From NCBI RefSeq assembly GCF_001719165.1, contig NZ_CP017057.1:2232001-2296000 (forward strand): a stretch of DNA of 64,000 bases, given 5' to 3'. The translations under genes were made by a program, and so were the position numbers. Of this stretch, positions 26,521 to 64,000 are shown in pieces. This DNA comes from Erythrobacter litoralis. GTDB lineage: Bacteria; Pseudomonadota; Alphaproteobacteria; Sphingomonadales; Sphingomonadaceae. The notes under the pieces were generated by a model that saw only the letters and a program-made list of their open reading frames with translations, was not told the origin of the DNA and did not search any database. Positions within the stretch are counted from its first letter, which is position 1, and each line of letters opens with the position of its first letter.

Positions 26521-29385
26521 ATGATTTCGACATTGCGACTTTTCGCCGCCGGGCTCTGGCTCGCGCTGGTTCCGCCTGCCCTTGTCCCGCTTCATGCGCA
26601 GGACCCGCCGGCCCAGGCGGGCGGCGAGGCCCCCGCCGACGCGCCCCGATGGGCGTTCGAGGACAGCGACGTGCCGGTCGATGCTGGCTATGTCTTCGGG
26701 ACGCTGCCCAATGGCATGCGCTATATCCTGCGCGAAAACGCGACGCCTGATGGCACGGCGCTGGTGCGCATGCGGATCGGATCGGGCTCGCTCGAAGAGC
26801 GCGCCGACGAACGCGGCCTGTCGCACTATCTCGAACACATGGCCTTCAACGGGTCGACGGGCGTGCCCGAGGGCGAGATGGTCAGGCTGCTCGAACGCGA
26901 AGGGCTTGCCTTCGGCGCGGACACGAACGCTTCGACCGGCTATGAGGCGGTAACCTACAAGCTCGACCTTCCGCGCAATGACGAGGGTCTGCTGGACACC
27001 GCGCTAATGCTGATGCGCGAGACGGCGAGCGAACTCACGATTGCACCGGCTGCGGTCGAACGCGAGCGCGGAGTGATCCTCGCCGAACGGCGCGACCGGG
27101 CGGGCCATGCGCTGTCGGCCTATGAGGACGAGGTCGAATTTCTCGCACCCGCAGCGCGCTATGGCGAACGCCTGCCGATCGGGACGCTGGAGGTGCTCGA
27201 AAGCGCGGGGGCAGCGGACATCCGCGCGCTCTACGAACGGACCTATGTGCCCGCCAACACGGTTCTGGTCGTGGTCGGCGACTATCCCGTGGAGCTTATG
27301 GAAGCGAAGGTCCGCGCGATGTTCGCGGACTGGCAGGGCGGCCCGGCGCCGGAAGAGCCGGTCACAGGCCCCGTCGATGCGGCGCGCAAGGGGTTGACCG
27401 ACATCCACATCGACCCGGCGCTGTCGGAAAGCGTCGCCCTATCCCGCCTCTCCCCCTTCGAGGACGAGGCGGACACGCTCGCCGCGCGCGAACGGGCCAC
27501 CCTGCGATCGATCGGCTATTCCATCGTCAATCGCCGCCTCGCCGCGCTCGCTCGCGGGGCCGACGCGCCGTTCAATTCGGCGCGCTTTTCCTCCGGCGAC
27601 CTGTTCGAGGATGCGCGCCTCACCAGCCTCACCGTGAACACCGCCGACGGCCAATGGCGCGAAGGCATGCTGGCAGCGGTGCGCGCCGTGAACGAAGCGC
27701 TGACCCATGGCTTCACGCGCGCCGAACTCGACGAGCAGCTGGCGGGCCGCCGCACGGGACTGCAGAACCTCGCCGCCGCAGCTGAAACGCGCACCCATGC
27801 CGCCTATGTCAGCGGCGCGCTGCGGCTGGTCGACGACGGCACGATCCCGACCGAACCTGAATTCCGGCTCGCTCTGTTCGAGAAACTCGCCGCGCGAATC
27901 ACGCCCGAGACGGTCCATGACGCATTGATCGAGGATGCCGCCCCGCTCGAAGAGCCGCTGATCCGCGTCGAGGGCCGCACGGCCCCCTCAGGCGGAGAGG
28001 ACGCGCTGCGCGGCGCCTTTGCCGAGGCGATGGCGCTCCCCATCGCTCCGCCGGACGAGGCCGGCGCGCTGGCCTTCGCCTACGGGGATTTCGGCGAGCC
28101 CGGAAACGTGGTCGAGGACCGGGTGGACGAACGGCTCGGCATCCGCCTCGTTGCCTTCGACAACGGCGTGCGGCTCAATCTCAGGCGCACCGATATCCGC
28201 AAGGACCGGCTGCAGGTGCGCATCGCCGTGGATGGCGGGCAATTGCTCGAGACGGTCGAGGACCCGCTCGCCACCGCCATGGTCGTCGCACTGGCCGGCG
28301 GCGGGCTCGGCGCGCACAGCCAGGACGAGCTCGCGACGATCCTTGCCGGGCGCACGGTGAGCTTCGGTGTGTCGTCGGCGAGCGACAGCTTCGTCGTCAC
28401 CGGAGGGACGACGCCGCGCGATCTCGAACTGCAATTGCAGCTCGCCGCCGCGCTGCTGACCGATCCTGGCTACCGGCCCGAGGGCGAGGAGCGCTATGCC
28501 CGCTCGGTCGAGAACTATTTCGCCAGTCTCGACGCCACTCCGGGGCGTGCGCTGGGGACCGCGATCGGCGGAATCCTGTCGGACGGCGACCCGCGCTTCA
28601 CGCTGCAGCCGCAGGAGGCCTATCTGGCGAAGGATTTCGCCCAGCTGCTCGATGTCCTCGCGGACCGGTTCGAACGCGGGGCGATCGAGGTCGCGATCGT
28701 CGGCGATATCGAGGAGGACGAGGCGATCGCAGCGGTCGCGGCGACGCTCGGCGCGCTGCCACGGCGCGAGGCGTCATTCCGCGAGCGGACCGAGGCGCGC
28801 AAGCGGACCTTCACCAGAGACCGGAGCCCGCGCGTGCTGACCCATGCGGGCGAGGCGGACCAGGCGCTCGTGCGCCTGACATGGCCGACCACCGACGATT
28901 CCGACCACGAGGAAGCGCTCCGCCTCGCGGTGCTCGCCCGCGCGGTTCGGATCGCGCTCACCGATAGCCTGCGCGAGGAACTGGGCGAGGCCTATTCGCC
29001 GGGCGCCAGCTCCTCACCCAGCCGGACCTATGAAGGTTACGGCACTTTCCAGGTCCAGGCCGCGCTAGATGTCGCATCGGTCGACATTGCGCGCGCGGCG
29101 ATTGTCGGCGTGGTCGAGGATTTCCGAGCCGGAAAGATCGATGCCGACACGATCGAGCGGGCCAAGCGGCCGCTGCTCGAGGATTACCAGAACGCGCTCA
29201 AGACGCTGACCGGCTGGATGAACCTCGTGCGGCGCGTCCAGAGCGAGCCCGAGCGGATCGACCGCTGGCTTGCCGTGCCCGAACGGCTCGGGCGGATCGG
29301 CGCGCAGGAGATCGCGGCGGCGGCCGAGCGCTGGCTCGATCCGGCAGGCGCGGTCGAAATCCTCGTCCTGCCCAGGGGCGATTGA
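26521..29385 (+). CDS. M16-family zinc metallopeptidase, two-domain, exported
   Basis: A 954-residue pitrilysin/insulysin-type peptidase. A signal peptide is visible (LRLFAAGLWLALVPP, cleavage near LHAQ), so it acts in the periplasm. The inverted zinc motif is in SHYLEHMAFNG (HxxEH, ~100), with the distal Glu in AAVERERGVILAE (~180). The second, inactive M16 half starts near residue 540 and carries the family pattern RLTWPTTDD ... EELGEAYSPGASS. ATG 26521 fits the signal peptide although no good ribosome-binding site precedes it. From 27,776 to the end the sequence is repeated at 47,695-49,303, where the gene has lost its first ~418 codons. This upstream copy is the complete one. Confidence 0.9.
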   Translation: MISTLRLFAAGLWLALVPPALVPLHAQDPPAQAGGEAPADAPRWAFEDSDVPVDAGYVFGTLPNGMRYILRENATPDGTALVRMRIGSGSLEERADERGLSHYLEHMAFNGSTGVPEGEMVRLLEREGLAFGADTNASTGYEAVTYKLDLPRNDEGLLDTALMLMRETASELTIAPAAVERERGVILAERRDRAGHALSAYEDEVEFLAPAARYGERLPIGTLEVLESAGAADIRALYERTYVPANTVLVVVGDYPVELMEAKVRAMFADWQGGPAPEEPVTGPVDAARKGLTDIHIDPALSESVALSRLSPFEDEADTLAARERATLRSIGYSIVNRRLAALARGADAPFNSARFSSGDLFEDARLTSLTVNTADGQWREGMLAAVRAVNEALTHGFTRAELDEQLAGRRTGLQNLAAAAETRTHAAYVSGALRLVDDGTIPTEPEFRLALFEKLAARITPETVHDALIEDAAPLEEPLIRVEGRTAPSGGEDALRGAFAEAMALPIAPPDEAGALAFAYGDFGEPGNVVEDRVDERLGIRLVAFDNGVRLNLRRTDIRKDRLQVRIAVDGGQLLETVEDPLATAMVVALAGGGLGAHSQDELATILAGRTVSFGVSSASDSFVVTGGTTPRDLELQLQLAAALLTDPGYRPEGEERYARSVENYFASLDATPGRALGTAIGGILSDGDPRFTLQPQEAYLAKDFAQLLDVLADRFERGAIEVAIVGDIEEDEAIAAVAATLGALPRREASFRERTEARKRTFTRDRSPRVLTHAGEADQALVRLTWPTTDDSDHEEALRLAVLARAVRIALTDSLREELGEAYSPGASSSPSRTYEGYGTFQVQAALDVASVDIARAAIVGVVEDFRAGKIDADTIERAKRPLLEDYQNALKTLTGWMNLVRRVQSEPERIDRWLAVPERLGRIGAQEIAAAAERWLDPAGAVEILVLPRGD

Positions 29386-29479
29386 CCGCCGGCAGGGCCT
29401 GCCAAGGCCGCCACCAGAAAGGGCAGCACAAAAAAGGGGCCGGCAAGTCGCCTCTTGCCCGCCCCCATTCTGGAAGTGG

Positions 29480-29500
29480 TCCGGGCTTGATACGCCCGGA
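29480..29500. terminator. Hairpin between convergent M16 and TonB receptor genes
   Basis: TCCGGGC (29480-29486) pairs perfectly with GCCCGGA (29494-29500) across a seven-base loop. It lies between two convergent stop codons and may end both transcripts. No T-run is present. Confidence 0.5.
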
Positions 29501-29519
29501 ACCGTGTCGTTGTGGCGCC

Positions 29520-31721
29520 TTAGTAATCGACCCCGAAGGAAACGCCAACCACCCGCGGATCGTTCACGAAAGCGGTAAGGTTGTTGAAGTCGACCGCGCC
29601 GAGGATGTTGTCCTCATTTGTGATGTTGCGCGCGAACAGGGCGACTTCCCACTGGCCGTCGCCGCCCGAATAGCCGATGCGAAGGCCGCCCTCGATCCGG
29701 CTGTCGGCGTTGAATTCGGCGCTTTCGTAGAGGAAGAAGTTCGTCTCGCCGAGATAGATCCAGTCGGTGAAGATGAAGAATTCGCCCGAATTGCCCACCG
29801 GAACGCCATAGCGCGCGGTGAAATCGCCGCTCCATTCGGGTGCGTTAGGGAATGGATTGCCGTCCACCAGCGCAAAGCCGTTCGCATTGAGCGGGTCGAG
29901 CACGGTGCATTGCGCGCACACGCCCACGGCAAGGCTGTCGTCGTTGATCTGCGTGTCGTTATAGGCGAGCCCTAGCGTCAGCGTGATGTTCGGGGTCGGC
30001 TGGAACGCGGTGTCGAATTCAAAGCCCCAGGCCTCGCCTTCATTCGCATTGATCAGCTGGACGAGATTGCCCGCCCCGCCGACGGCGGTGAACTGCGGGT
30101 CCTCGACCGTGTAGTAGAAGGCCGAACCGTTGATCCGCACCTTGCGGTCGGCGAACTCGCTCTTGAAGCCCGCCTCGTAGCTGGTGATGTTCTCCGACTG
30201 CGCGACCGAAGGCGCGGCGAAGAAGGCGACGTCGCGGCCCTGGATGGTCGGCGCGCGAAACGCATTGGCGACGCGGGCATAGACGCTGGTCGTGTCGGTC
30301 ACGTCGGCGAAGATGCTGACGTCCCAGTCGATGTTGTCGTCCTGCACGCTGACCGGCTGGAGCGGCGCGCCCGAGCGCACGAAGAAGTCCTTCTCGTCGT
30401 CGGTGTAGCGCAGCCCTGCGGTCACGCGCAGCGCCTCCGTCAGTTCGTAGCTCGCCTGCCCGAAGACCGCCCAGGCGGTGTTGGTGTGATTGACGGTGAC
30501 GGGCGGCGGAAAGGTGAAGCCGACGGTCGTCACGTCGAAATCGCTGTCGAAGATGAACCCGCCGACCTGCCAGGACAGAGGCCCGTCGCCGTTCGAGGCG
30601 AGGCGCACTTCGTGGGTCAGCTGTTCGAGATCGATCGAATCCTGCGTGTCGGAGGGGAACGGGATGAAGCCCGGCCCCGTCACGAGATTGCCCCCGTCGA
30701 TATCGCCGCGGCTGAAGCCTTCGCTGGTCCAGTAGCTGGTGATCGAGGTGAGGGTGGCGAAATCGTATTCGTAGGACGCATTGAGCGTCGCGCCGAACTG
30801 GTTGTACTCGGCCGGATTGCCGCCGCCCGCATCGTAGAACACAGTGTCGCGGTCATAGTTCTGGTTCAACTCGTTGCTGCCGGGCGACAGAACGTTCGCG
30901 CGAAAGAAGGTCGATGACCCGTCGAGATCGCGGAAATTGACCTGGGCGAGGATCTCGCTGCGTTCGTCCGGCGTCCACAGCAGCTGGCCGCGAATGGCGA
31001 AATCGGTGAACCCGCCGAGCGCATTCTCCTCGCCGGTGAAGCCGTTGTCGATCCAGTCGCCGCGGCGCTGGAACTGGGTCGAGACGCGGAAGGCCAGCTT
31101 GTCCTCCACGATCGCCCCGCCGACCGCGCCGGTCAGCGAAGCCGTGTCGAGCGAACCGAAGCTGAGACCGGCCTGGACGTCGGGCTCGAACCCGGGCTTG
31201 ACGGTTTCGATCTTGACGATGCCCGCCGGCGTGTTGCGACCGAACAGCGTGCCCTGCGGCCCGCGCAGCACTTCGACGCGCTGGACATCGAAGATCGGGA
31301 AGCTCTTGAGCGTCACGTTCTCGAGCACGATTTCATCGAGGATCACCGAAACCGGCTGCGAGGCGGCAAGGTCGAAATCGGTGTTGCCCAGCCCGCGAAT
31401 GTAGAACCGCGGCGCGACGCGCCCGTTCGAGCTTTCAACATTGAGGCCGGGCGCAGCGCCGGCAAGCGCGGTCGTGTCGGCAGCGCCCGAGAAGATGAGA
31501 TTGACGCGCTGTTCGTCGAGGATGTCGGCGGAGACGGCCACGTCCTGCAGGCTTTCCTCGCGCCGGTTGGCGGTGACGATGATCGTCGGCAATTCGCCTT
31601 CGGAGCTCTGCGCGGTCTCGTCGTCCTGCGCGGCTGCGGGCGCGGCAAACCCGATGCCGGCGGCCGCGATAAGGCTGGTGGAGGCCCAGAGGGCGCGCAC
31701 GAAAGGAATACGCTGTGACAT
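29520..31721 (-). CDS. TonB-dependent receptor
   Basis: A 733-residue outer-membrane receptor with a signal peptide (ALWASTSLIAAAGIGFAAPA, cleavage after AAAQ). A TonB-box-like IIVTANRREESLQDV is followed by a plug with RFYIRGLGNTDFD, VILDEIVLEN and VEVLRGPQGTLFGRN, then a 22-strand barrel ending GVSFGVDY with the terminal aromatic residue. This is the large sphingomonad receptor group whose ligands are mostly siderophores, vitamins or plant-derived compounds; the ligand here is not evident. It is divergent from purS (283-base gap with inverted repeat 31742-31763) and convergent with the M16 gene. The second copy at 49,438-51,640 is frameshifted, so this one is the reliable reading. Confidence 0.93.
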   Translation of the reverse strand: MSQRIPFVRALWASTSLIAAAGIGFAAPAAAQDDETAQSSEGELPTIIVTANRREESLQDVAVSADILDEQRVNLIFSGAADTTALAGAAPGLNVESSNGRVAPRFYIRGLGNTDFDLAASQPVSVILDEIVLENVTLKSFPIFDVQRVEVLRGPQGTLFGRNTPAGIVKIETVKPGFEPDVQAGLSFGSLDTASLTGAVGGAIVEDKLAFRVSTQFQRRGDWIDNGFTGEENALGGFTDFAIRGQLLWTPDERSEILAQVNFRDLDGSSTFFRANVLSPGSNELNQNYDRDTVFYDAGGGNPAEYNQFGATLNASYEYDFATLTSITSYWTSEGFSRGDIDGGNLVTGPGFIPFPSDTQDSIDLEQLTHEVRLASNGDGPLSWQVGGFIFDSDFDVTTVGFTFPPPVTVNHTNTAWAVFGQASYELTEALRVTAGLRYTDDEKDFFVRSGAPLQPVSVQDDNIDWDVSIFADVTDTTSVYARVANAFRAPTIQGRDVAFFAAPSVAQSENITSYEAGFKSEFADRKVRINGSAFYYTVEDPQFTAVGGAGNLVQLINANEGEAWGFEFDTAFQPTPNITLTLGLAYNDTQINDDSLAVGVCAQCTVLDPLNANGFALVDGNPFPNAPEWSGDFTARYGVPVGNSGEFFIFTDWIYLGETNFFLYESAEFNADSRIEGGLRIGYSGGDGQWEVALFARNITNEDNILGAVDFNNLTAFVNDPRVVGVSFGVDY

Positions 31722-31741
31722 GGTGGAAATTCCCTTTGCTT

Positions 31742-31763
31742 GTCACGGAGAGAGGGACGTGAC
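31742..31763. promoter_or_regulatory. Inverted repeat in the receptor-purS promoter region
   Basis: GTCACG (31742-31747) and CGTGAC (31758-31763) form a symmetrical site 20 bases upstream of the receptor start codon. It could be an operator or a 5' hairpin. The rest of the 283-base divergent gap shows nothing else I can support. Confidence 0.35.
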
Positions 31764-32004
31764 GCCCGCGGGCTGGCAGATTTGCCCGATTCTGGCGAGA
31801 TGCGGCGGTGCACAAACGACGCAAAAGCGGCATTTCCGGGTCATTCCCGTATCACCTGTGGCAAAGGGGTTACATCTGTCAGCATCCCGGCGCGCGTCCC
31901 ATCCCGGCGCGATCCCGGGGAGAGCCGCGAGGAACCCCCTCCCCCTGACGCCCAAGCCTCGCTATAGGCGCACCGCGCAAGACCCACATTCGCAGGAACC
32001 GCCC

Positions 32005-32247
32005 ATGAAAATCCGCATCCTCGTCCGCCTCAAGCCCGGCGTGCTCGATCCGCAGGGACGCGCCGTGCACCACGCACTGGACGGGCTCGGCTTCGCGGGC
32101 ATCGAGGACGTGCGCGTGGGCCGGATGATCGAACTCGAAGTCGCCGACGGCACCACCGACGAGACGCTGGCGAAGATGTGCGAACAGCTCCTCGCCAACA
32201 TGGTGATCGAGGATTACGTCATCGAACGTGCAGGGGAGCAGGGCTGA
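32005..32247 (+). CDS. purS: FGAM synthase small subunit PurS
   Basis: An 80-residue protein that bridges PurL and PurQ in the three-subunit phosphoribosylformylglycinamidine synthase. [20 protein letters not shown] and the C-terminal [17 protein letters not shown] match PurS along the full length. Its stop overlaps the purQ start by one base. No purL is visible downstream in either copy; the large subunit must be elsewhere. An identical copy is at 51,924-52,166. Confidence 0.96.
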
Positions 32248-32936
32248 TGGGCTTTCGCGCAGGGGTCGTCACCTTCCCCGGCTCGAACTGCGACCGGGAC
32301 ATGGCGGTGGCGCTGGAGAAGGTCTCCGGCGAACCCGCGATCCGCATCTGGCACGGCGAGGCGAGCCTGCCCGAGCGGCTCGACCTGATCGCGCTTCCGG
32401 GCGGCTTTTCCTATGGCGATTACCTGCGTTCGGGCGCGATGGCGGCGAAAAGCCCGATCCTGCGCGCCGTCATCGATGCAGCAGAACGCGGCGTGCCGGT
32501 CCTCGGCGTGTGCAACGGCTTTCAGGTCCTGACCGAAGCGGGCCTGCTGCCGGGTGCGCTGATGCGCAATGCGAACCAGACCTTCATCTGCCGCACCGTC
32601 CCGCTGACGGTCGAAAACACCGACAGTATCTTCACCCACGGATTCGAGGCTGGCGAGACGATCCGCATCCCCGTCGCCCACCACGACGGCAATTACTTCG
32701 CCGACGATGCCACGCTCGACCGGCTGGAGGGCGAAGGCCGCGTCGCCTTGCGCTATGGCGAAACCTGCAACGGATCGCGCCGCGACATTGCAGGCGTGCT
32801 GAGCGCCAATGGCCGCGTGCTTGGCATGATGCCGCATCCCGAACGCGCGATCGAACCGGTGAGCCACCCCTCGCTCGGCGGGCCGGACGGGCGGCGATTC
32901 TTCGAGAACCTGATCGGCGCACTCGCCTCGGCCTGA
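32247..32936 (+). CDS. purQ: FGAM synthase glutaminase subunit PurQ
   Basis: A 229-residue class I glutamine amidotransferase giving ammonia to [18 protein letters not shown] opens the protein, the nucleophile Cys is in [20 protein letters not shown] (~86), and the His-Glu pair is in [14 protein letters not shown] (~196). ATG 32247 overlaps the purS stop codon (TGATG), so the two subunits are made together. It is convergent with the GGDEF-EAL gene across 37 bases. An identical copy is at 52,166-52,855. Confidence 0.97.
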
Positions 32937-32973
32937 CCCTGATTCGCAGGCGCAGGCTTAGGTGCGCAAGGGC

Positions 32974-35328
32974 CTAGGCGCTGATCCGGCGCCGGGTCCG
33001 GAACAGGAGGCGGGCTTCCTCGTTCGACATCGGACGGCCGAAATAGAAGCCCTGGATCTTGTCGCAGCCCAGATTGCGGATCATCGCGGCCTCTTCGGCG
33101 GTCTCGACACCCTCGGCCGTGGTGGTCATGTCGAGGCTTTTCGCCATCGCGACCACTGCATTGATGATCGCGAGGCTTTCATTGGCCCCCTGCGCCGCGC
33201 CCTGGACGAAGGTGCGATCCACCTTGATCGTCGAGAACTTCAGCTTCCTGAGGTAGCCCAGCGACGAATAGCCGGTCCCGAAATCGTCCAGTGCAACCGA
33301 GCAGCCCAGCGCCATGACCTGTTCGAGCGCGTTGCGGGCGATGCTCGCATCGCGCAGGAAGATGCTCTCGGTCACCTCGACCTCGAGCCGTTCGGGCCTG
33401 AGCCCGCTCGCGGCGAGCGCATCGACCACGTCCTGGTGGAAATCGGGTTCCAGCAGCTGTTCGGGCGAAACGTTGACATTGACCTTGACCTCTTCGGGCC
33501 ATTCGCGCGCTTCCATGCAGGCCTGGCGCAGGACCCATTTGCCGATTGGCACGATCAGGCGCGTATCCTCGGCAAGGGGGATGAACTTGCCCGGGCTGAC
33601 GAAACCGTGCTCGGAGGAATTCCAGCGCACCAGCGCCTCGAAGCTGACGACGTTCTCGCTGCGCGCATCGACCACCGGCTGGTAATGGAGCACGAATTCG
33701 TCGAGCCCCAATGCCTTGCGCAGGGAATCTTCGAGCTGGCGCCGCTCCTCGGCCGATGCGTGGAGGACCGGTTCGAAGCGGCAATGTTCGCCCCCGCCGA
33801 TATCCTTCGCCTGATAGAGCGCGAGGTCGGCATTGCGCATCAGCTCCTCGACCGTCTTGCCGTCGCGCGGACCGATCGCCGAACCGACGCTCGCCCCGAC
33901 ATAAAGCGTGTGCTGTTCGACCTGGTAGGGCTCCGACAGCGCCTCGATCACCTGCCGCGCGACTTCGCAGACCCGTTCGCTCTCGCTTGCATCGCGGATC
34001 ACGATGGCGAATTCGTCGCCGCCCAGCCTGCCGCACATCAGATCGTCGTTCATCAGGACCTGGAGGCGCGAGGAAACCTGCGCGAGCAGCTTGTCCCCGG
34101 TCATGTGGCCGAGCGAATCGTTGACCGCCTTGAACCGGTCGAGATCGACCATCAGCAGCGCGCAGCGCGAGCGCCATTTCTCGGCATCGCGCAATGCTTC
34201 GCCCAATGCCTCGGTCAGCTGGAGGCGGTTGGGCAGCTGGGTAAGCGTGTCGTAGCGCGCGAGATAGGCGATCTTCTCGGAGGACTGGCGCTGTTCGGTG
34301 ACGTCCGAGCCGACCCCGCGAAAGCCGTCGAAGCGACCGCGCTCGTCGCGCATCGGCGTGCCCGAAAGCTCCCACCAGCGCTTTTCCCCGTTGATCCTGA
34401 CCTCGACCAGCAGCGCCGAGAAATTCTCGCGGTTCTTGAGCTTATCGGCGAGTTCGTGGAGGCTTTCGGGAAAGCGCCCCTCGCCCCAGCGCCCGCCGGT
34501 GACCAGTTCGAGCAGCGGCTTGCCTGTGACCGCGGCCTGCGATGCGCCCAGCGCGAAGGCGAAGCGCGGAGAGACCGAACGCAGCCTGCGCTGGGTGTCG
34601 ACTTCCCACAGCCAGTCGGCCTCGTTCTCCTCGAATTCGCGCAGCAGCAGCGAGACGACCTCCTCCTTTTCCGCGATCGCGGTTTCGGCAAGGCGCGCCG
34701 TGAGGTAATGCCGCCCGGTCTCGATCGCGCCGATGATCGACACGATGGTGAATACGATCGAGACCGTCATGGTGAGGAATTCCCCGGCAATCGCGAGGGC
34801 GATGGTCGTGCCGGTGCCGACGATGAGCGAGAAGACGACCACGCCGAGCGGGGCGGCGGTGTTGAAGAACACACCGCCCGCGATCAGGATCGCGAGGATA
34901 TAGAGCATCGCGCCGAACTCGCCGCTCGTCCCTTGCGGGCCGAAACCGACCACGGCGGCCGCCCACAGCAGGCCCGACAGCGCCGGGGTGATGGTCTGGC
35001 GGTAGAATTCGCGGGTGGTGATCCGGCGGTGCGCGACATCGCCGAGCGAGCGGTCGAAGGCAGCTCCGCGCAAATGCACCCAGGCGAGCGCCGCCATCCA
35101 CAGCGCGATCCAGGCGAAGGAGACGCTGTCGCGGTAGAGCACGGCCACGAACACCGCGAACAGGGCATGGGCATAGGAGCGCAGGAAGGTGAGTCCGGCG
35201 AGCGCCGAATATTGCAGACCCCGCAGCCGCGCCCACTCCGCCCCGCCCCGGCCCGACAGGCCAAGCACGGCCGCAGCCGTCAGTCCGGGAATCGCCGGCT
35301 GGGAGGGGGAGTGTGCCTGGTCGCTCAC
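32974..35328 (-). CDS. Membrane GGDEF-EAL cyclic-di-GMP enzyme
   Basis: A 784-residue signalling protein. The N-terminal ~200 residues contain five or six membrane segments (LFAVFVAVLYRDSVSFAWIA, YILAILIAGGVFFNTAAPLG, SIVFTIVSIIGAIETG). A PAS-like domain follows (WLWEVDTQRRLRSVSPRFAF ... GVGSDVTEQRQ), then GGDEF with an intact RLGGDEFAIV and DRFKAVNDSLGH, and EAL with FEALVRW, VEVTESIFL, LDDFGTGYSSLGYL and AEGVETAEEAAM. Both catalytic sites look complete, so it may make and degrade c-di-GMP. GTG 35328 is the likely start: the membrane part follows directly and further upstream coding is not family-like. The second copy (52,893-55,247) carries two compensating indels. Confidence 0.9.
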   Translation of the reverse strand: MSDQAHSPSQPAIPGLTAAAVLGLSGRGGAEWARLRGLQYSALAGLTFLRSYAHALFAVFVAVLYRDSVSFAWIALWMAALAWVHLRGAAFDRSLGDVAHRRITTREFYRQTITPALSGLLWAAAVVGFGPQGTSGEFGAMLYILAILIAGGVFFNTAAPLGVVVFSLIVGTGTTIALAIAGEFLTMTVSIVFTIVSIIGAIETGRHYLTARLAETAIAEKEEVVSLLLREFEENEADWLWEVDTQRRLRSVSPRFAFALGASQAAVTGKPLLELVTGGRWGEGRFPESLHELADKLKNRENFSALLVEVRINGEKRWWELSGTPMRDERGRFDGFRGVGSDVTEQRQSSEKIAYLARYDTLTQLPNRLQLTEALGEALRDAEKWRSRCALLMVDLDRFKAVNDSLGHMTGDKLLAQVSSRLQVLMNDDLMCGRLGGDEFAIVIRDASESERVCEVARQVIEALSEPYQVEQHTLYVGASVGSAIGPRDGKTVEELMRNADLALYQAKDIGGGEHCRFEPVLHASAEERRQLEDSLRKALGLDEFVLHYQPVVDARSENVVSFEALVRWNSSEHGFVSPGKFIPLAEDTRLIVPIGKWVLRQACMEAREWPEEVKVNVNVSPEQLLEPDFHQDVVDALAASGLRPERLEVEVTESIFLRDASIARNALEQVMALGCSVALDDFGTGYSSLGYLRKLKFSTIKVDRTFVQGAAQGANESLAIINAVVAMAKSLDMTTTAEGVETAEEAAMIRNLGCDKIQGFYFGRPMSNEEARLLFRTRRRISA

Positions 35329-55247: not shown

Positions 55248-55519
55248 GCTGCCGGGGATTAACCGCGAAAGGTTAGAGGCCGGTAAAGCGGCAGCGCTTT
55301 TTGCTTTTTTGCGACCGGTCGAAAAGGCGGGATGGCACAGGCCCTTACGCCCGCCGGGCGCGTTCGCGCACCTTGCATCGGCATTGCTTCCCACCCGCGC
55401 CTGCCGATCCGCAAAGGCCCCGTATTTTCCCCCGCAGGGCCTCCGCTTCGATCTTAACCGGCCGGTTCCATCACTTCTGCCGACATTGCGAAAATGTCCA
55501 ACGAAAGGAGAGTGCACCC

Positions 55520-55816
55520 ATGTCCCCCCAACTGACAGGATCGTCCCAGGTGGAGGAAGCGCTCGAAAGTCTCGAACAGCAGCTGGTTGCGCTGTACGAG
55601 GAAAAGCAGGCCGCAGCCGCCGACGGCGCCGAAACCGCCGCCATGCGCGAGACGATGTGCAATCTCGAAGCCCAGATCGTCGAACTCTACCGCGAGAAGG
55701 AGGAGCTCCATCGCGGCGAAGGCCTGATCGCGCAGAAAGACGAGACGATCGCCAATCTCGAAGCGCAGATCGTCGAGCTCTACCGCGAGAAGGAAGATCT
55801 CGCCCGCGCCGCCTGA
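55520..55816 (+). CDS. Small coiled-coil protein, copy 2
   Basis: Identical to the 98-residue coiled-coil protein at 35,601-35,897, including both NLEAQIVELYREKE units, the ribosome-binding site and the upstream hairpin. Confidence 0.68.
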   Translation: MSPQLTGSSQVEEALESLEQQLVALYEEKQAAAADGAETAAMRETMCNLEAQIVELYREKEELHRGEGLIAQKDETIANLEAQIVELYREKEDLARAA

Positions 55817-55829
55817 CCGCGCCCGGGCG

Positions 55830-56643
55830 GTGCACGGCACCGGCGCGTCATGCTTCGCTTGCCAAAGGTTTCGTCAGGGCCGTTCGCCCGCCTTCGAGCT
55901 GCGCGAAAGCGGCCTTGGCCTCGGCGACGTGCTGTGCTGCGCCCCGCGCGGGAGCTTTCAGGCGGCGATCGATTTCGTGGCCTGCGCCATAGGCGGCTTC
56001 GTCTATCTTCACCTCGCCTGCGATCGTTTTCGCCGCTCTGCGCCGGGAACTGGCGGGCGAACCGGTCATCGGCCGGGCCGGTATCATGCTGTGCGACGAG
56101 CGCGGCGGCACCGAACGCCATTGCGACCGCCTCCCCGCAAGCCTCGCCGGGCTCCATTCGGCGGACGAGGCGCTGCTCGGATTGTTCCTGCCTGCTTCCC
56201 CGCATGCAGAAAGGCTTCATCCGTTCGCCGGTCGGGCCATCGAAAGCACCCTTGCGCGCCTCTCATGCGAACTTTCCACGCCCTCCGGCGGCGCGCGGAT
56301 GACGCGGGTCTGCACGCACCACGATGCAGGCTTCGTGGTCGACCTGCTGCTCGGCCTGTGCAACCGCCAGACGATCTATCTGCGCGCGGGGAACGCGGAG
56401 AGCGCGGCAGAGACGGTGCACGAGGCGATCGCGCTCGAAATCGACGATCTCGTCCTTGCGCCCGGCATGATCGAAGCGATCGCGCAGGACGGTCTGCAGC
56501 TGGAGGGGACGGCACGGACAGCGCTGGCCCGGATCCGGCTGCACACGGGGGGCGAACCGCTTTCCAGCGCCCAGCGCGACATGGCCGCGCGCCTGTTCGG
56601 CAAGGTATTCGTCGAACCGCCGCTTGCTGCGCTCGCCGTGTGA
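55830..56643 (+). pseudogene. Acyl-adenylate-synthetase-like protein, copy 2, frameshifted
   Basis: Same gene as 35,911-36,723, with four T instead of three at 56,027-56,030. The frame is lost after LHLACDRF. The copy 1 reading is continuous. Confidence 0.7.
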
Positions 56644-56676
56644 GGCGGTCCCGAGCGCCGGCAATCCGCCTTGCTC

Positions 56677-57333
56677 TCAGCCGCGATCCGTGCGGTTGAG
56701 CACCAGAAGCAGTCGAGGGCCGCTGGCGCTCGCGATCGGGGGAGAGCGGTGGATCGCCGGATGATCGGTCGCAAGCTTGCCCTTGAAGATGCCGACATCG
56801 CCGGGTTCGAGCCGGTTGATCGCGCGCGGTTCTTTGCCGGCGCGCACGCGCGCGGCGTCTGCGCGCGTGAGCCATTGCGTGCCCGGCCCGACATAGGTCG
56901 TGATCATCCGCGCGGCGACGTAATCGGCATGGAACTTGCGGCAGGAATCGGTCGTCACGACTTCGAGCCGCAATTCCAGTTCCTCGATTTCCATGACCGC
57001 GCAGAAGCGTTCGGCCAGAAGCGCGACATCATAGCAAAGCGCACGATGAAGATTGCGTCCCCCGAATCCATGGCTGGCGAGCGCCGCAGCGAAACGCGCC
57101 GCAAGGTCGGCGCGCGAGGCGTCGAAGCGGATATCCCGGGGGCTCCCTTCGATCAGCGCGCTCCAGTCGATCAACAAGTTGCGCTGCCAGATGGCGAGAT
57201 TGCAGTCATCGTCGCTGATCGCGCCGAGTATCCCGGCAGCGGTGGATATCGCGGCGCCCGTTTCGCGCAAGGGTGCGCCTAGGGTTTGGGCACGGCTTTC
57301 CAAAGCTGCGGTTCGGGCGATCGTGGCGGTCAC
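56677..57333 (-). CDS. DUF1826 protein, copy 2
   Basis: Identical to 36,757-37,413: the DUF1826 block with TTDSCRKFHADYV and a GTG start after AAAGG. It shares the divergent promoter, with the possible Zur box at 57,361-57,372, with the MerC gene. Confidence 0.79.
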   Translation of the reverse strand: MTATIARTAALESRAQTLGAPLRETGAAISTAAGILGAISDDDCNLAIWQRNLLIDWSALIEGSPRDIRFDASRADLAARFAAALASHGFGGRNLHRALCYDVALLAERFCAVMEIEELELRLEVVTTDSCRKFHADYVAARMITTYVGPGTQWLTRADAARVRAGKEPRAINRLEPGDVGIFKGKLATDHPAIHRSPPIASASGPRLLLVLNRTDRG

Positions 57334-57360
57334 GGCAATTGCCTTTGCGTTCAAGATGTG

Positions 57361-57372
57361 ATGTTGTAACAT
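57361..57372. promoter_or_regulatory. Possible Zur box, copy 2
   Basis: Same ATGTT-GT-AACAT site as at 37,441-37,452, between the divergent DUF1826 and MerC genes. Confidence 0.45.
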
Positions 57373-57409
57373 TTACCTAGTTCCCTTCTCACCCATATGC
57401 AAGAGAGCC

Positions 57410-57790
57410 ATGAAACCCGCCGCCCCGAGCCCGCTGTTCGATCGCTTCGGCATCGCCCTTTCCGGGCTCTGCCTCGTCCATTGCCTTGCCCTCCCTGTCG
57501 CGCTCGCGCTCCTTCCTGTCCTCGCGTCGAGCGCATTGGGCACCCTGGCGCAGGCCGAGTGGTTCCATGCCGCACTGCTGGTGCCGGTCGTGCTGGTAAG
57601 CGGCGGCGTGCTCGGTCCGCGGGCGCTCGTCGTCCGGTGGCTAGGCCCGCTCCTCCTCTTTGCCCTTGGCGCCATGACGGGCGCGCTTTTCGTTGCGGTG
57701 CAGTGGCAGGAACAGGCGATGACCGCGGGCGGAGCCAGCCTTCTCATTCTCGCGCATTGGCTGAACCTGCGCGAACGCGGCCGGGCATGA
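57410..57790 (+). CDS. MerC-domain membrane protein, copy 2
   Basis: Identical to the 126-residue MerC protein at 37,490-37,870, with four membrane helices and the GLCLVHCLALP motif. First gene of the rightward cluster. Confidence 0.84.
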   Translation: MKPAAPSPLFDRFGIALSGLCLVHCLALPVALALLPVLASSALGTLAQAEWFHAALLVPVVLVSGGVLGPRALVVRWLGPLLLFALGAMTGALFVAVQWQEQAMTAGGASLLILAHWLNLRERGRA

Positions 57791-57841
57791 CGTCCCGGCA
57801 GCCCCACCGACCTTAGCCCCGTCCAGACCGGCCGACCGAAC

Positions 57842-58513
57842 ATGACCACCCTTTGCGTCCGCGATGTCGCCCTTTCCTATGACGGCCGACCGGTGCTGGA
57901 ACAGGTGTCCTTCGACCTCGCACCGGGTTCGCGCACGCTGCTGCTCGGCGCGTCGGGGTCCGGCAAGTCGAGCCTTCTCAACATCGTCTGCGGCCTGCAA
58001 TCGCCGGACCGGGGCGAGGTGAAACTGGGCGAAGAGGCGATCGCGCCTGCACGCTCCGCCGCCGCCGCGGACCGGGTTCGGCAGCGGCACATGGGGATCA
58101 TCTTCCAGACCCTGCGCCTCGTCTCCGCGCTCAGCGTGCGCGGCAATCTGCTGCTCGCCCAGAAGCTTCAGACCGGAAGGCGCGACCCCGCCCTTGTCGA
58201 CAGCGTGCTGCGCGAACTCGGCATTGCCGACCGCGCCCATGCCCGGCCCTTCGCGCTCAGCCAGGGCGAGGCGCAGCGGGCCGCGATCGCGCGCGCGCTG
58301 GTTGTGCGCCCGAAGCTGCTGATAGCGGACGAGCCGACCTCGGCGCTCGACCGCGACAATGCGCACAGGGTCGCAGGGCTGCTGCTCGATGCCGCCAAAG
58401 CCTCGCATGCGAGCCTTCTCATCGCGACCCATGACGAGCGGCTGCTGCCGCATTTCGAGAAGGTGCTGCGGATCGAGCGCGGCAGGATAGAGGAAGGGCG
58501 GATCACGGCATGA
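57842..58513 (+). CDS. ABC transporter ATPase, copy 2
   Basis: Identical to 37,922-38,593: Walker A GASGSGKS, signature LSQGEAQR, Walker B LLIADEPTSALD. It overlaps the permease gene by four bases. Confidence 0.91.
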   Translation: MTTLCVRDVALSYDGRPVLEQVSFDLAPGSRTLLLGASGSGKSSLLNIVCGLQSPDRGEVKLGEEAIAPARSAAAADRVRQRHMGIIFQTLRLVSALSVRGNLLLAQKLQTGRRDPALVDSVLRELGIADRAHARPFALSQGEAQRAAIARALVVRPKLLIADEPTSALDRDNAHRVAGLLLDAAKASHASLLIATHDERLLPHFEKVLRIERGRIEEGRITA

Positions 58514-59790
58514 TCTCGCTCGCGATCGCCTATCTCAAGGACCGCCCGCTGACGAGCGCGCTCAACGTGGCCCTGCTCGCAATTTCGGTCGCGCTGCTCG
58601 TCCTGCTGCTGCAATTCGGCCACCAGGCGGGTGAGCGGCTCGAGCGCGATGCGCGCGGGATCGACCTCGTCGTTGGAGCCAAGGGGTCGCCGCTCCAGCT
58701 GATCCTGTCAGCCGTGTTCCATATCGACCGGCCGACCGGCAACATCCCGCTGGACAGCCTCGACTTGCTGCGCCGCGACCCGGCAGTGGAGCGCGCGGTC
58801 CCGATCGCGCTGGGCGACAATTTCGCAGGCTACCGGATCGTCGGGACGGACGACTCGTTCATGGCGCTTTACGGGGCAGAACTGGCCAGCGGCAGCACCT
58901 TCGATGAACCGATGGAAGCCGTCCTCGGATCGGAAGTCGCGCGGGCGACCGGAGCGGGGCCTGGACAGGCCTTCGTCTCCAGCCACGGCCTTGCCGACGA
59001 ACAGGACGCGGAACAGGGCCACGGCCATGCCCCGTTCGAAACCGTCGGCGTGCTCGTCCCGACCGGCACGGTGGTCGATCGGCTCGTCCTGACGCCCTAT
59101 GAAAGCGTATGGGACGTTCACGGCATCGCGCACGGCCGACCGGAGAGCGAACACGCGCACGATCATGAAAGCGCCGCAGGGGATGCCGGGGCACCGGACC
59201 AGCCGGGCAGGCGCAGCGCCCTCACCATGACTTCCCGCGCGCCGGAAGCCGAACTCACCGCGCTTCTCGTCACCTACCGCAACGCCGCGGGCGCGCTTCG
59301 CATTCCCGCGCTGGTCAACCGGCAGACCGCGATGCAGGCCGCCGTCCCGGCGAGCGAGACGGCCCGCCTGCTCGACCTGCTCGGCGCGAGCCTCGAAGGC
59401 GTGCGGGTGCTGGGCTGGCTGCTCGCGGTGACCGGCGGGCTCGCAATCTTCGTCGCGCTCCTCAACATGGTCCGCAGCCGCGAGGGCGACCTCGCCCTGC
59501 TGCGCGTCATGGGGGCGAGCCGGATGCAGGTCTTCGCCACGGTGCTTCTCGAAGGCGTGGTCACGGCTGTTCTCGGCGCGGCGCTCGGATGGTTCGCGGC
59601 GCATTGCCTCATCGCGGCGGCGCGGGCGAATTTCGCGACACTGGGCAACCTGGGGCTTGCCGCGTGGCACCCCCTGCCGGAGGAATTGCTGCTGGTGGCG
59701 GCGGTGCTGGGCCTCGGCGCGCTCGCAGCGCTGATTCCGGCGCTGCGCATCTACCGCGTGGATGCCGCGCGCATCCTCGCACGGAGCTGA
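58510..59790 (+). CDS. FtsX-type permease with His-rich loop, copy 2
   Basis: Identical to 38,590-39,870, including the periplasmic His clusters EQGHGHAPFE and SEHAHDHES. In this copy the DUF3299 gene after it is intact, so this is the best view of the complete operon. Confidence 0.89.
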   Translation: MISLAIAYLKDRPLTSALNVALLAISVALLVLLLQFGHQAGERLERDARGIDLVVGAKGSPLQLILSAVFHIDRPTGNIPLDSLDLLRRDPAVERAVPIALGDNFAGYRIVGTDDSFMALYGAELASGSTFDEPMEAVLGSEVARATGAGPGQAFVSSHGLADEQDAEQGHGHAPFETVGVLVPTGTVVDRLVLTPYESVWDVHGIAHGRPESEHAHDHESAAGDAGAPDQPGRRSALTMTSRAPEAELTALLVTYRNAAGALRIPALVNRQTAMQAAVPASETARLLDLLGASLEGVRVLGWLLAVTGGLAIFVALLNMVRSREGDLALLRVMGASRMQVFATVLLEGVVTAVLGAALGWFAAHCLIAAARANFATLGNLGLAAWHPLPEELLLVAAVLGLGALAALIPALRIYRVDAARILARS

Positions 59791-59825
59791 CACCCATGGA
59801 TCAAGGCGACCGACTGGAGGACATC

Positions 59826-60335
59826 ATGCATCGCATCGCGCTGGTCATCCTCGCCGCAATGGCGACGTTCAGCCTCGGCCCGGTCACGAGCGCCCAGGCG
59901 CCCGATCCAAAGACCGGGCCCGTGATCGAAGACGTTTGGCAGCCCGCGCGCACGCCCAGGGGCGGCGTCTCGTGGAAAGTGCTCGAGGCGACCGAGGAGA
60001 TCACCCGGCTCGACGATGAGGGCTACATCCTTTCGAGGCCCCGCTTCACCAAGCAGGTGCGCGCGCTGGCGGGCAAGCGGATCAAGGTCGCCGGCTGGAT
60101 GATGCCGCTCGATGCTCAGCGGACCCAGAAGCGCTTCGTCCTGCTCGGCTATCCGCCCGGCTGCCCGTTCCATTTCCACGCGGCGCCCAACCAGTTCGTC
60201 GAGGTGATCGCGAGCACGCCCTTCCCTACCGACGAACGCAAGGTGTTTGTGGTCAGCGGAGTGCTCGAACTGACAGGATATGACGAAAGCGGAATCTTCT
60301 ACCGCCTGCGCGATGCGAGGCCGGGCTTGTTGTGA
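59826..60335 (+). CDS. DUF3299 secreted protein (intact copy)
   Basis: A 169-residue protein with a signal peptide (HRIALVILAAMATFSLGPVT, cleavage near TSAQA), so periplasmic. The DUF3299 core is VRALAGKRIKVAGWMMPLDA, RFVLLGYPPGCPFHFHAAPN, and VVSGVLELTGYDESGIFYRL; the Cys-x-Phe-His-x-His group is a likely metal site. ATG 59826 is used because GGAGG lies seven bases upstream. It is the last gene of the MerC-ABC-permease cluster. In Pseudomonas aeruginosa the equivalent gene PA4066 lies with Zur-repressed transporter genes, supporting a zinc role. The other copy (39,906-40,413) is broken by two one-base losses. Confidence 0.85.
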   Translation: MHRIALVILAAMATFSLGPVTSAQAPDPKTGPVIEDVWQPARTPRGGVSWKVLEATEEITRLDDEGYILSRPRFTKQVRALAGKRIKVAGWMMPLDAQRTQKRFVLLGYPPGCPFHFHAAPNQFVEVIASTPFPTDERKVFVVSGVLELTGYDESGIFYRLRDARPGLL

Positions 60336-60505
60336 GACAGAAAAGATCTTCCGTTTTTTCATGCGAATCCCAGCTTCCCGCCCTACCCTCTGACAATATA
60401 GTTTTTCGATTTTCGCAGTCTCGTACGGAACAAACACAGAATAGGAGGTGGTCTGAGCCCGAAGTTTCTACCAGCTAGGAGTAGAGCCTTGGGCCGTTTG
60501 CACTG

Positions 60506-61387
60506 CTACCCAACGTTGGACCACTCGGGTCTGGAGTTTTCCGCCTTGCTCAGGTCCGGCGGGCCGGTCTCACCGGCTGAGTTTGCCAGCATGATCGGGG
60601 GTATATTCCCGATCGCGCTGAGCGGTCGCTCTTCGTTGTAGTGTCTACGCCACGCCTCCAGCTTTTCGCAAGCGTCTTGCAGGTTCAGGAACCAGTGCGC
60701 GTTCAGGCATTCGCTGCGCAGCTTGCTGTTGAACGCCTCGATGAACGCATTGTCTGTCGGCTTGCCAGGGCGGGAGAAGTCGAGGATCACACCGCGCTGG
60801 TAAGCCCACAGATCCATGTCCCTCGAGATGAACTCGCTGCCATTGTCCACCCTGATCGTCTTGGGATAACCGATCTTTCGGCACGCCCGGTCCAGCGTCG
60901 CGACGACGTCTTCGCCACGATAGCTGAACCGAGGATCGACCACCGGCGATAGTCGGGAGTAGGTGTCGACCACCGTCAGGATGCGCAACTTGCGACCCGT
61001 TGCCAGCTGGTCGTGCACGAAGTCCATCGCCCATACATCGTTCGGCCGGATGGCAGGAGCACGGTCCTCGCGCAGCTTCGCTTTGACCCGTCACTTGGGC
61101 GTTTTGTTGCGCAGCTGCAGGCCCAACTCCCTGTAAAGCCGATAGACCTTCTTCATGTTCACGACCCAACCGTCGCGGCGAAGGATGTAATAGACCCGCC
61201 GGTAGCCATAGCGGACGTGCGTCTCGCAGATCTCCTTGATGCGCTTCTTCAGAAAGGCCGGATCGGTCCGGCGGGACTGGTAGTGGTAGGTCGAACGATC
61301 AAAATGCAAAGCCGAACATGCCCTGCGGATCGTAACCTGCCAGTCCTGCCGAACCGCGTCGATAATCTCGCGCTTGCGATCCGGCCT
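60506..61387 (-). pseudogene. IS3 transposase OrfB, interrupted by TGA
   Basis: The integrase-core transposase. From ALRPDRKREIIDAVRQDW through RSTYHYQSRRTDPAFLKKR to RELGLQLRNKTPK it is open, then TGA (61,091-61,093) stands where related transposases have Arg, after which RVKAKLRED and the catalytic core (AMDFVHDQLATG, VDTYSRLSPV, VDNGSEFIS, NAFIEAFN, HYNEERPL) continue in the same frame to 60,506. Both copies share the TGA, so it is not a copy-specific error; a C-to-T change in CGA would explain it. OrfB normally needs a -1 frameshift from orfA, and the two overlap near 61,387. The stop codon lies 11 bases outside the assigned IS end. Confidence 0.82.
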
Positions 61388-61715
61388 CAGAGCTTTCGCT
61401 TGATAACATCCTGCAGCATCTCGCGATCAAGCGTCAGATCGGCGACGATCTTCTTCAGCCGACTGTTCTCATCCTCCAGCTCACGCAGTCTGCGCATCTC
61501 AGACGGCATCAGCCCCGCGTATTTCTTCTTCCAGTTGAAGTAGGTCGCCTGGCTAATCCCTGCCTTGCGGCAGATCTCCGCCACAGGCGTTCCTTCCTCG
61601 CCCTGTTTTACGACGAACGCCTTCTGGGCGTCCGTGAACTTCGATGCCTTCATGCCGCAACTCCTCACCCAGCCAAGGAAACCTACGGCAGAAAACTCTA
61701 ACCAGAAATGGTCCA
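60517..61715 (-). mobile_element. IS3-family insertion sequence (IS407-like), copy 2
   Basis: 1199 bases with imperfect inverted ends beginning TGGACCA. orfA (61,387-61,653) is intact. orfB is open apart from one TGA. The sequences outside both ends are the same as around copy 1, so this is the same insertion event carried in the long repeat, not an independent transposition. Confidence 0.83.
61387..61653 (-). CDS. IS3 transposase OrfA (intact)
   Basis: An 88-residue protein of the IS407 group: KASKFTDAQKAFVVKQGEEG, the helix-turn-helix in AEICRKAGISQATYFNWKKK, then a leucine-zipper segment (RELEDENSRLKKIVADLTLD). ATG 61653 matches the usual OrfA start. It binds the IS ends and, by frameshift fusion with OrfB, forms the active transposase. 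Confidence 0.92.
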   Translation of the reverse strand: MKASKFTDAQKAFVVKQGEEGTPVAEICRKAGISQATYFNWKKKYAGLMPSEMRRLRELEDENSRLKKIVADLTLDREMLQDVIKRKL

Positions 61716-61941
61716 GTTTTCAGGTGGCAGAGCAAGGGCCTTCGCTCATAGCTCTTATACAAACCAAGTGATGTCCGCTCTCGGGGTCGGCTTGGGTTAT
61801 TATACCGGGCCTATCCTTAACGCTTTGATCTTTTCAGGCGGCGGGTTGCTCCGCCGCGACTGCATTCTGTCAGGATCCCGAATTCAGCCGGGATTAAGGT
61901 GCTTTTGGCAGGCTGTTCAGCCACAGGCATGAGGAGGCAGG

Positions 61942-62439
61942 ATGATGGTCTTCGGAATAGTCGGTGCTGCAGCACTCGCGTTGTCGCCCGTTTCGGCTTC
62001 GGTGCCGGACGTGACCGTCGAGTTCGTCGACCGGGTGCGGCGCGATGCGCAAAATAGCCTCTGGCATCGCTACGATTTCCGCTTCACCAATTCAGGGTCC
62101 GAGGAGCGGATCCTCTCGCTCTGTCCGACCGAAGCGACGCTGTATTTCAAGAACACCATGGCGGGCCTCACGCGGCTTGAGCGCCTCGCGGCCAGCGCGC
62201 TCGCGATTGACGGCGAAAGCTGGAGCTTCAATTGCCGCAAACGCACGATCGCGCCGGGCGACAGCGTCATGCTTGGCATCTACTTTCGCTGGTGGGAGGG
62301 CGACTTTCGCTGGTGGGAGGGCGACGGCGTTCGCGCCGTCCGACCGATCATGTTCGAGACTTCGCTCGGCAAGTTCTTCGTGAAGGAGGGGCGCATCATC
62401 GCGCTCGGCGAAGGCGACGAGGAGACGCTCGCGATCTGA
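61942..62439 (+). CDS. Secreted hypothetical protein with a tandem FRWWEGD unit (intact copy)
   Basis: A 165-residue protein of unknown function. A signal peptide (FGIVGAAALALSPVSAS) is followed by a beta-rich domain (DVTVEFVDRVRRDAQNSLWH, YDFRFTNSGSEERILSL) with two Cys, and ITIA-PGDSVMLGIY-type turns reminiscent of small periplasmic immunoglobulin-like folds. FRWWEGD occurs twice in a row because of a perfect 21-base tandem duplication (62,285-62,326), which may be a recent slippage event. The start may be the second ATG, 61,945, which is better spaced from AGGAGG. It lies between the IS and the photoreceptor gene and converges on the latter. Confidence 0.72.
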   Translation: MMVFGIVGAAALALSPVSASVPDVTVEFVDRVRRDAQNSLWHRYDFRFTNSGSEERILSLCPTEATLYFKNTMAGLTRLERLAASALAIDGESWSFNCRKRTIAPGDSVMLGIYFRWWEGDFRWWEGDGVRAVRPIMFETSLGKFFVKEGRIIALGEGDEETLAI

Positions 62440-62589
62440 TCCGGGACCCGCAGTCGGGAAACGGCCCAGTCTCAGACTATTCAAGTTACTGCGCGAGACA
62501 TACGAGACCCATCGCCGCAAGGCGGGCACCCCTCATAGCGTATCGAACATGCATAAGGTCTGCGTACGCGCAGCGAAAATTCTCTCTCG

Positions 62590-63645
62590 TTAACGAGGTA
62601 GCTGTCGTTTCTGCCGAATCAATTCGGCGATCCGGATAGTTGAGCCGGAAGCAGTTTTTCGCGCGTGATCTGCGCCCACACTCTCGGCGGTGGCCGCTGC
62701 GTCGGCGAATAGTCGCCCTCCTACCGACACGACTGTTAAGTGATCGGGCGATGCAAACCGGCTGCGTTCAACCGTCTGGCGCAGTAATTTGAGCTTCTGC
62801 TGGCGCGGCAGAGCATCAGACAGTCCGATATCAAGCGCGTCTGGCTTTTGTGAGGCGAGCTGGTTGGCGAGCGCCTGGTCGCTGTCGGGAAACGCCATGT
62901 CAACGTGCCAACCTGCATCCGTGAAGAGGTCCGCCAGGAGCGAGGTACCAAGCGCATGCGGCTCTCCAGGAGCCGTCGCCAGCATGATGCTGTATCGTCG
63001 CTGCCTGAGCGATTGCGGGGTTGGAGCGTGCCTAACGGCATGGCCAGCGAGTTGGAGCATGCTCAGCCCAATCGTCAGATCGACTTCGGAACAGTCGTCC
63101 GACAGCCAAGCATCTCCGAGCGCCCGAGCGGTTGGCTCGATTAGATGGGTAATGATTGCATCGCCAGACCACCCTTGCTCGGCCGCAGAAGCGACAAAGG
63201 CATTGATGCCAAGATCATCGCCGTTGAGCACCAGTTCCATAAGAGCGGGCACCTGCGAGGTTAGCCCGTGCTGTGGCTTGATCTTATCGACTTTGTGAAA
63301 AGGTTCCTCGTCGGCATGATAGCTGAGCAAATCCCAGCCACCAAAGAGTTGGGCGGGAACGATGTGCTCGCTCAGTATCTCGATATGGCTGTGACGTCGA
63401 TCCTCGTTGATCGACTGCCACAGCACGCTCAGACTTTTTGGCGGACCTTCGAGTGTCTGAAAGAACCGCCCCTTGTCGTAAAGCAACATGCCGGTGACGC
63501 CGAGGCTACGGTTACGCTGCCGCGCTTTCCAGGCAAGTTCGCGCAAATCGCCGGGCGTCGGTCTCGAGGTAGCCTTGCTTTGATAAGTCAGACTACTGGT
63601 CCAGTCGGGGGGATTGACCTCTGTGGTTTCGATTTGAAATGACAC
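62590..63645 (-). CDS. AppA-like photoreceptor: BLUF plus cobalamin/haem-binding domain
   Basis: A 351-residue sensor. Residues ~17-110 are a BLUF domain: LTYQS with Tyr21, RQRNRSLGVTGMLLY with Asn45, GRFFQTLEG with Gln63, and FGGWDLL with Trp104, the same numbering as the flavin-binding residues of Rhodobacter AppA; Met106 of AppA is Leu here. Residues ~140-345 are a cobalamin-binding-type (SCHIC) domain: helical cap with LIEPTARALGDAWLSDDCSE, then APGEPHALGTSLLADLF with His230 at the axial-ligand position, and VSVGGRLF near the end. AppA has the same order and controls photosynthesis genes through the repressor PpsR. The Cys-rich tail of AppA is absent. Copy 1 has one additional T near its end. 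Confidence 0.92.
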   Translation of the reverse strand: MSFQIETTEVNPPDWTSSLTYQSKATSRPTPGDLRELAWKARQRNRSLGVTGMLLYDKGRFFQTLEGPPKSLSVLWQSINEDRRHSHIEILSEHIVPAQLFGGWDLLSYHADEEPFHKVDKIKPQHGLTSQVPALMELVLNGDDLGINAFVASAAEQGWSGDAIITHLIEPTARALGDAWLSDDCSEVDLTIGLSMLQLAGHAVRHAPTPQSLRQRRYSIMLATAPGEPHALGTSLLADLFTDAGWHVDMAFPDSDQALANQLASQKPDALDIGLSDALPRQQKLKLLRQTVERSRFASPDHLTVVSVGGRLFADAAATAESVGADHARKTASGSTIRIAELIRQKRQLPR

Positions 63646-63931
63646 GGGCAGTCTCCCAGTTTTTCGCCGGGATGCAACAACAGAATTACATCATGCCAAT
63701 CTACTGAAGGCTTGGCTCGCTGCTTCAAGATGGTTGCGCGCTTGTACCGTTTCTCGCCAGCGCGCTGAATCTTAAAGCATAGCGTAATAGCCTTGGTCGC
63801 AGGGTAAGGCTGCGGCAATGCAACTCCGGATTCGATCCCTGACAAAAGCTGAAGAAAAGCCTAAACGCTGTCAAGCCAGATTGGCGGAGTCTCTTGTCGT
63901 CTTGGGCAAGGCGGAAGCCTCTCTCGACCGA

Positions 63932-64000
63932 TTAGAACTGCTCAAGGCAACGTTTGCGTTCCGCTTCTACAAAGGCGTATGCCTCGGCTCCCTCATCCGC
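63932..64000 (-). CDS. tenA-linked small protein, copy 2, C-terminal end (partial)
   Basis: The last 22 codons and stop of the 109-residue gene described at 44,010-44,339, cut by the window edge. It shows that the repeat continues at least this far and probably includes tenA. Confidence 0.6.
   Translation of the reverse strand, partial: ADEGAEAYAFVEAERKRCLEQF

Follow-up and report, generated by a model that had tools for sequence, protein, structure and literature searches.

A 19.9-kb direct tandem repeat in the chromosome record of Erythrobacter litoralis, very probably an untrimmed overlap of contig ends

The repeated unit and the genes at its edges

The window, i.e. the whole stretch of 64,000 nt analysed here, covers positions 2,232,001 to 2,296,000 of a single 3,251,353-base contig and has a G+C content of 65.2%. 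The genome entry in PMC7660246 for Erythrobacter litoralis DSM 8509 (CP017057) gives 3.25 Mb, 1 contig and 65.2%. When the window was compared with itself by BLASTN, one off-diagonal match was obtained, 27,776–44,078 versus 47,695–64,000, with 99.89% identity, 1 mismatch and 17 gaps. Once the next 19 kb of the record were added, the full match was observed, 27,776–47,694 versus 47,695–67,617, the alignment containing 1 mismatch and 18 gaps of one base each. The two copies (19,919 bp for copy 1 and 19,923 bp for copy 2) are in direct tandem without any spacer, and copy 2 ends at position 67,617 (G000:C1:2299617), 3.6 kb beyond the window.

Nineteen sites distinguish the copies (18 one-base indels and 1 substitution), and the offset across these sites ranges from 19,918 to 19,925. 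An earlier note, made from the letters of the window, had described a direct 16.3-kb repeat with the tandem geometry of 27,776–47,694, about 18 single-base indels and one substitution, and a period of 19,918–19,925. BLASTN confirmed this geometry and extended the repeat to the complete 19.9-kb unit; the complete alignment and the offsets at the 19 sites agree with the differences and the period given there. The unit carries the 3′ half of an M16 peptidase gene, a TonB receptor gene, purS/purQ, a GGDEF/EAL gene, an ABC transporter and genes for a BLUF protein and a TenA-like protein. The features used in this section and the following ones are:

26,158–29,385, + strand: complete M16 peptidase gene (1075 aa, Pfam), across the left edge of copy 1
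27,776–47,694, + strand: copy 1 of the 19,919-bp unit (BLASTN), which we read as the end of the original linear contig; seven assigned errors in its last 7.8 kb
39,957–46,510, no strand: thirteen differences near the end of copy 1, seven of them assigned, all as errors of copy 1
47,604–47,694, − strand: last 91 nt (3′ end) of the tyrosine integrase gene that the join interrupts
47,694/47,695, no strand: blunt join of the two copies, 0 bp common on either side
47,695–64,000, on to 67,617, + strand: copy 2, which we read as the start of the original linear contig; four assigned errors in its first 5.4 kb
47,695–49,303, + strand: M16 gene of copy 2, reduced to its 3′ half and carrying a frameshift at 48,219
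48,219–53,092, no strand: five differences near the start of copy 2, four of them assigned, all as errors of copy 2
L005:3527–4159 (L005 is the record DNA after the window), − strand: whole 210-aa tyrosine integrase gene (PF00589), across the right edge of copy 2

Each edge of the unit lies within a gene. The left edge cuts the M16 gene near codon 540 of 1075, and the right edge cuts the phage-type integrase gene 91 nt (about 30 codons) before its end. Each interrupted gene is whole once, at the outer edges of the repeat: M16 at the left of copy 1, where the complete gene spans the edge as the earlier note had stated, and the integrase at the right of copy 2. Both genes had been described there as cut in the middle. 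This holds for M16; the integrase is cut near its 3′ end, because just its last 91 nt remain at the join. The 5′ part of the integrase gene had been considered missing and was found, upon looking beyond the window, directly after copy 2. The 210-aa integrase frame covers positions 3–168 of 172 of the Phage_integrase profile and has no other Pfam match; as judged by this profile coverage, the N-terminal DNA-binding domain may be absent.

To compare gene order around the left edge, we used the 28 of 80 loci that were longer than 20 kb and carried an M16 match of more than 50% identity. In all 28, PurQ and the GGDEF/EAL gene are found within 10 kb downstream of M16, with a TonB receptor in between in 17. 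Order and strands are as in the window in 27 of the 28 loci, the exception being L039 where PurQ and GGDEF/EAL are inverted. Thus, the order M16 - TonB receptor - PurQ - GGDEF/EAL at the left edge of copy 1 is the usual one among the relatives examined. The best relatives of the M16 protein come mostly from Erythrobacter/Porphyrobacter records.

The join itself, at record position 2,279,694/5, is blunt. The left flank of copy 1 and the left flank of the join have no identical bases, and neither do the right flank of copy 2 and the right flank of the join. The 6-base CCGCAG homology proposed previously at this position is therefore absent, since no base is common to the flanks on either side.

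Which copy departs from relatives

For each of the 19 sites we determined which copy agrees with relatives, using tblastn with 9,706 open frames from the relatives' loci together with diverged IS relatives from the same genome, the latter also being compared directly with both copies. The final comparison intervals each hold one site or one close pair; composition correction was off, the threshold was E ≤ 1e-4, and weak matches enter the counts given below. Initial intervals of ±500 bp mixed neighbouring sites: the 'copy 2 better' results at 40,480, 41,839, 41,954, 42,330, 42,558 and 42,575 were wholly or partly driven by a neighbouring site, and these six sites were kept out of the assignment. 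In total, the wrong copy was assigned at 11 of the 19 sites (positions are those of copy 1).

Four of these are departures of copy 2. At 28,300, copy 1 was favoured by 88 of 99 loci and copy 2 by none, with 11 ties. At 31,064, 46 of 80 loci were for copy 1 and 1 for copy 2, with 33 ties, and for the pair 33,144 and 33,174 the figures among 65 loci were 43, 3 and 19, respectively. The other seven are departures of copy 1. Copy 2 was favoured over copy 1 at 39,957 by 13 loci against 2 (44 ties among 59), at 40,118 by 40 against 4 (8 ties among 52), at 40,899 by 13 against 1 (2 ties among 16), at 41,175 by 16 against 2 (5 ties among 23), at 41,683 by 7 against 4 (5 ties among 16) and at 42,732 by 9 against 1 (5 ties among 15). 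For 39,957, a frame switch was visible with L094/L132 and L135 in the ±500-bp comparison. The assignments at 40,899, 41,175 and 41,683 depend mainly on one IS relative of the same genome (L124, 87% identical), which favours copy 2 at 41,683; the more distant IS relatives L125/L126 favour copy 1 at 41,175, by 2 bits. At 46,510, copy 2 has one LuxR-type frame of 253 aa where copy 1 has pieces of 134 and 135 aa; among the relatives, 2 loci favoured copy 2 and none copy 1, with 8 ties, all of these matches being weak, and the assignment was made by reading-frame continuity alone.

Together with 29,436 and 36,108, the six sites set aside above form the eight outside the assignment, where matches are too weak to count. 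At 36,108, copy 1 was favoured by 27 loci and copy 2 by 3, with 34 ties (best match 62 bits, several frames), and at 42,330, copy 2 was favoured by 22 and copy 1 by 3, with 9 ties (best match 44 bits); both leanings would agree with the polarity described below. The leaning at 42,558/42,575, with 4 loci on the side of copy 1, 2 on that of copy 2 and 12 ties (top matches about 35 bits), goes against it. One locus was found each way at 29,436, with 86 ties, and only ties were obtained at 40,480 (25/25), 41,839 (2/2) and 41,954 (9/9).

Along the unit, the assigned errors follow the order copy 2 four times, then copy 1 seven times, with no exception among the 11. Errors of copy 2 are located 0.5–5.4 kb after the join and those of copy 1 1.2–7.7 kb before it; none of the 11 lies in the join-distal part of either copy. 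With a 4:7 split, so perfect an order has a chance of 1/330; taking 33,144/33,174 as one event gives 1/120. In each copy the assigned errors are thus concentrated on the side that faces the join, so that the join has poor sequence to its left and to its right. The density of differences does not rise smoothly towards the join: 12 of the 19 sites fall within 39,957–42,732 and none in 42,733–46,509.

We further examined frame switches against relatives as a control. In the upstream flank, 3 or more relatives covered 26 of 56 bins, and no frame switch had majority support there; minority candidates were seen at 19,600 (6 of 23 loci), 23,000 (1/30), 23,200 (2/30) and 25,000 (9/35). Within the repeat, majority switches were found at 40,100 (11/11), 48,200 (36/37) and 50,900 (20/21). 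In the IS relic, with 3 covering loci, switches were supported by 2 of 3 at 41,300, 41,600 and 61,200. The switch at 41,300/61,200 is attributed to IS decay and not to a difference between the copies, because it occurs at the same place in both and its loci L125/L126 overlap. The remaining minority switches are at 32,200 and 32,900 (2/33 each), with matching ones at 52,100 and 52,800, at 39,900 (2/11) and, in the IS relic, at 41,100, 60,800 and 61,500 (1/3 each). Past copy 2, only 6 of 32 bins were covered, and this stretch gives no useful frameshift control.

Record start and origin of the repeat

Base 1 of the record falls between two genes: hemE (URO-D), which has rho downstream of it, and a PF03618 Kinase-PPPase gene, which occupies the 3′ end of the record (L114). 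The dnaA gene is found at 541 kb. DUF299 corresponds to the present-day PF03618. The Caulobacter origin has been placed between hemE and COG1806, a DUF299 gene (PMC1914354). The two 15-kb ends of the record gave no BLASTN match (E ≤ 1e-3) to each other or to the window and the next 19 kb, so that no terminal overlap was found between these 15-kb ends. A start at the alphaproteobacterial origin, together with record ends free of overlap, means that the circle was opened at a chosen point, i.e. that the record was rotated, and the original contig ends of the assembler must then be inside it. In the part of the record read, the join at 47,694/47,695 is the natural candidate for their site.

We consider it very probable, on the basis of the sequence, that the apparent tandem duplication is an assembly artefact, an untrimmed overlap of circular-contig ends that were joined and then rotated, and that it does not exist in the cell. 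The assembly history we infer is the following. A long-read assembler would have given one linear contig of the circular chromosome, running 19.9 kb past its own start. The ends of this contig, poorly covered and poorly polished, would have shared about 19.9 kb and would have been joined without trimming of the overlap, copy 1 being the contig's end and copy 2 its start. The circle would then have been recut between hemE and the PF03618 (COG1806) gene, where the replication origin lies. Because untrimmed ends were joined and the circle recut at the origin, the overlap would take the form of a mid-record tandem duplication, with poor polishing on both sides of the join. A sequencing platform of the long-read type and a single copy of the unit in the cell would follow from the same scenario. 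The earlier note had left the choice between a very recent real duplication and a product of the assembler; the blunt join, the polarity of the errors and the rotated record favour the assembler, and the real duplication is improbable.

Untrimmed terminal overlaps in long-read assemblies are addressed by Circlator, Minimus2 and BLAST trimming (PMC4699355). The present case resembles those treated there by its near-identical ends, both of low quality, by differences of the indel type and by a start that was shifted to a chosen gene; in contrast to them, the overlap is here already internal to a finished record that was rotated after joining. A published draft, presumably of the same strain, has about 3.17–3.22 Mb compared with 3.25 Mb for the complete record, which fits an excess of 20 kb and decides nothing. 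Among the matches listed for literature on untrimmed overlaps and tandem duplications, none dealt with this genome.

Bacterial tandem gene duplications arise via recombination between repeats, or by short-homology or illegitimate joining. The repeat is similar to them in being a direct head-to-tail repeat of a multi-gene segment and differs from them by its join without homology and by sequencing-type indels polarised to the join. Zero-homology joins can come from end joining, and the geometry alone would permit a real, very recent 19.9-kb tandem duplication formed in this way in the sequenced culture, the differences being errors from ambiguous read placement; copies that differ almost only by one-base indels would then be too young to have diverged. 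We nevertheless regard this as improbable: placement errors would be expected on either copy and anywhere, whereas the 11 that were assigned all fall on the join-facing side of their copy. Moreover, the edges have neither homology nor an IS, and a record that starts at the origin and ends without overlap requires an internal place for the original contig ends.

That repeats or IS copies at the unit edges recombined to give the duplication is hardly credible, even though the unit contains an IS3-type element, of which diverged relatives occur at other places in the genome. This element is located 12.8–14.0 kb from the left edge, and the edges, inside the M16 and integrase genes, have 0 bases in common, a comparison that refutes an IS-mediated duplication and bears out the exclusion of homologous recombination between IS copies in the earlier note. 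A small dispersed repeat near an edge is a 118-bp, 81% match to window positions 40,402–40,520 (beside the IS relic), found at G000:C1:2,300,690–2,300,807; it lies 1.07 kb past the end of copy 2, outside the right edge and away from the join. One edge being inside a tyrosine integrase gene, an element encoding the truncated integrase could be imagined to have duplicated the unit by site-specific recombination. Such recombination leaves a common core, however, and here the cut lies within coding sequence without a repeated att-like core (0 common bases), the other edge is the middle of the M16 gene, and the sole tRNA gene detected in the window by ARAGORN (25,145–25,220) is 2.6 kb outside the unit. 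We give this integrase-driven event virtually no weight.

If the overlap of untrimmed contig ends is the correct explanation, the record is about 19.9 kb too long, a gene set is counted twice and several genes are frameshifted in one copy, so that misleading numbers of paralogues, pseudogenes and duplications would be obtained for this genome. The polarity test, in which the errors of each copy are found on its join-facing side, needs no reads: the sequence alone is enough for it to flag a join of this kind.

Other elements in the unit and in the genome

The unit includes, at window positions 42,146–43,723 (− strand), a gene for a BLUF blue-light sensor with a stretch resembling a B12-binding domain, the latter match being below the curated Pfam cut-off. 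Matches to the BLUF protein at E ≤ 1e-20 were found in 47 of 100 genomes of the genus searched, including that of the window itself. The 525-aa BLUF frame of copy 1 is probably too long, as judged by the alignments, since for most of the relatives listed the match is limited to about residues 1–331.

An IS transposase relic with rve/rve_3 matches (Pfam), which we take to be of the IS3 type, occupies 40,578–41,812. A relative with 87% identity is located at G000:C1:466,836–468,123, and about 22 nt of gaps against this relative are common to both copies of the unit. Elsewhere in the genome, six equal-scoring frames of 287 aa matching PF00308 were found, at G000:C1 77,505, 422,822, 463,215, 641,068, 1,559,233 and 2,395,452. 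They probably correspond to the ATP-binding helper of a six-copy insertion element, presumably of the IS21 type.
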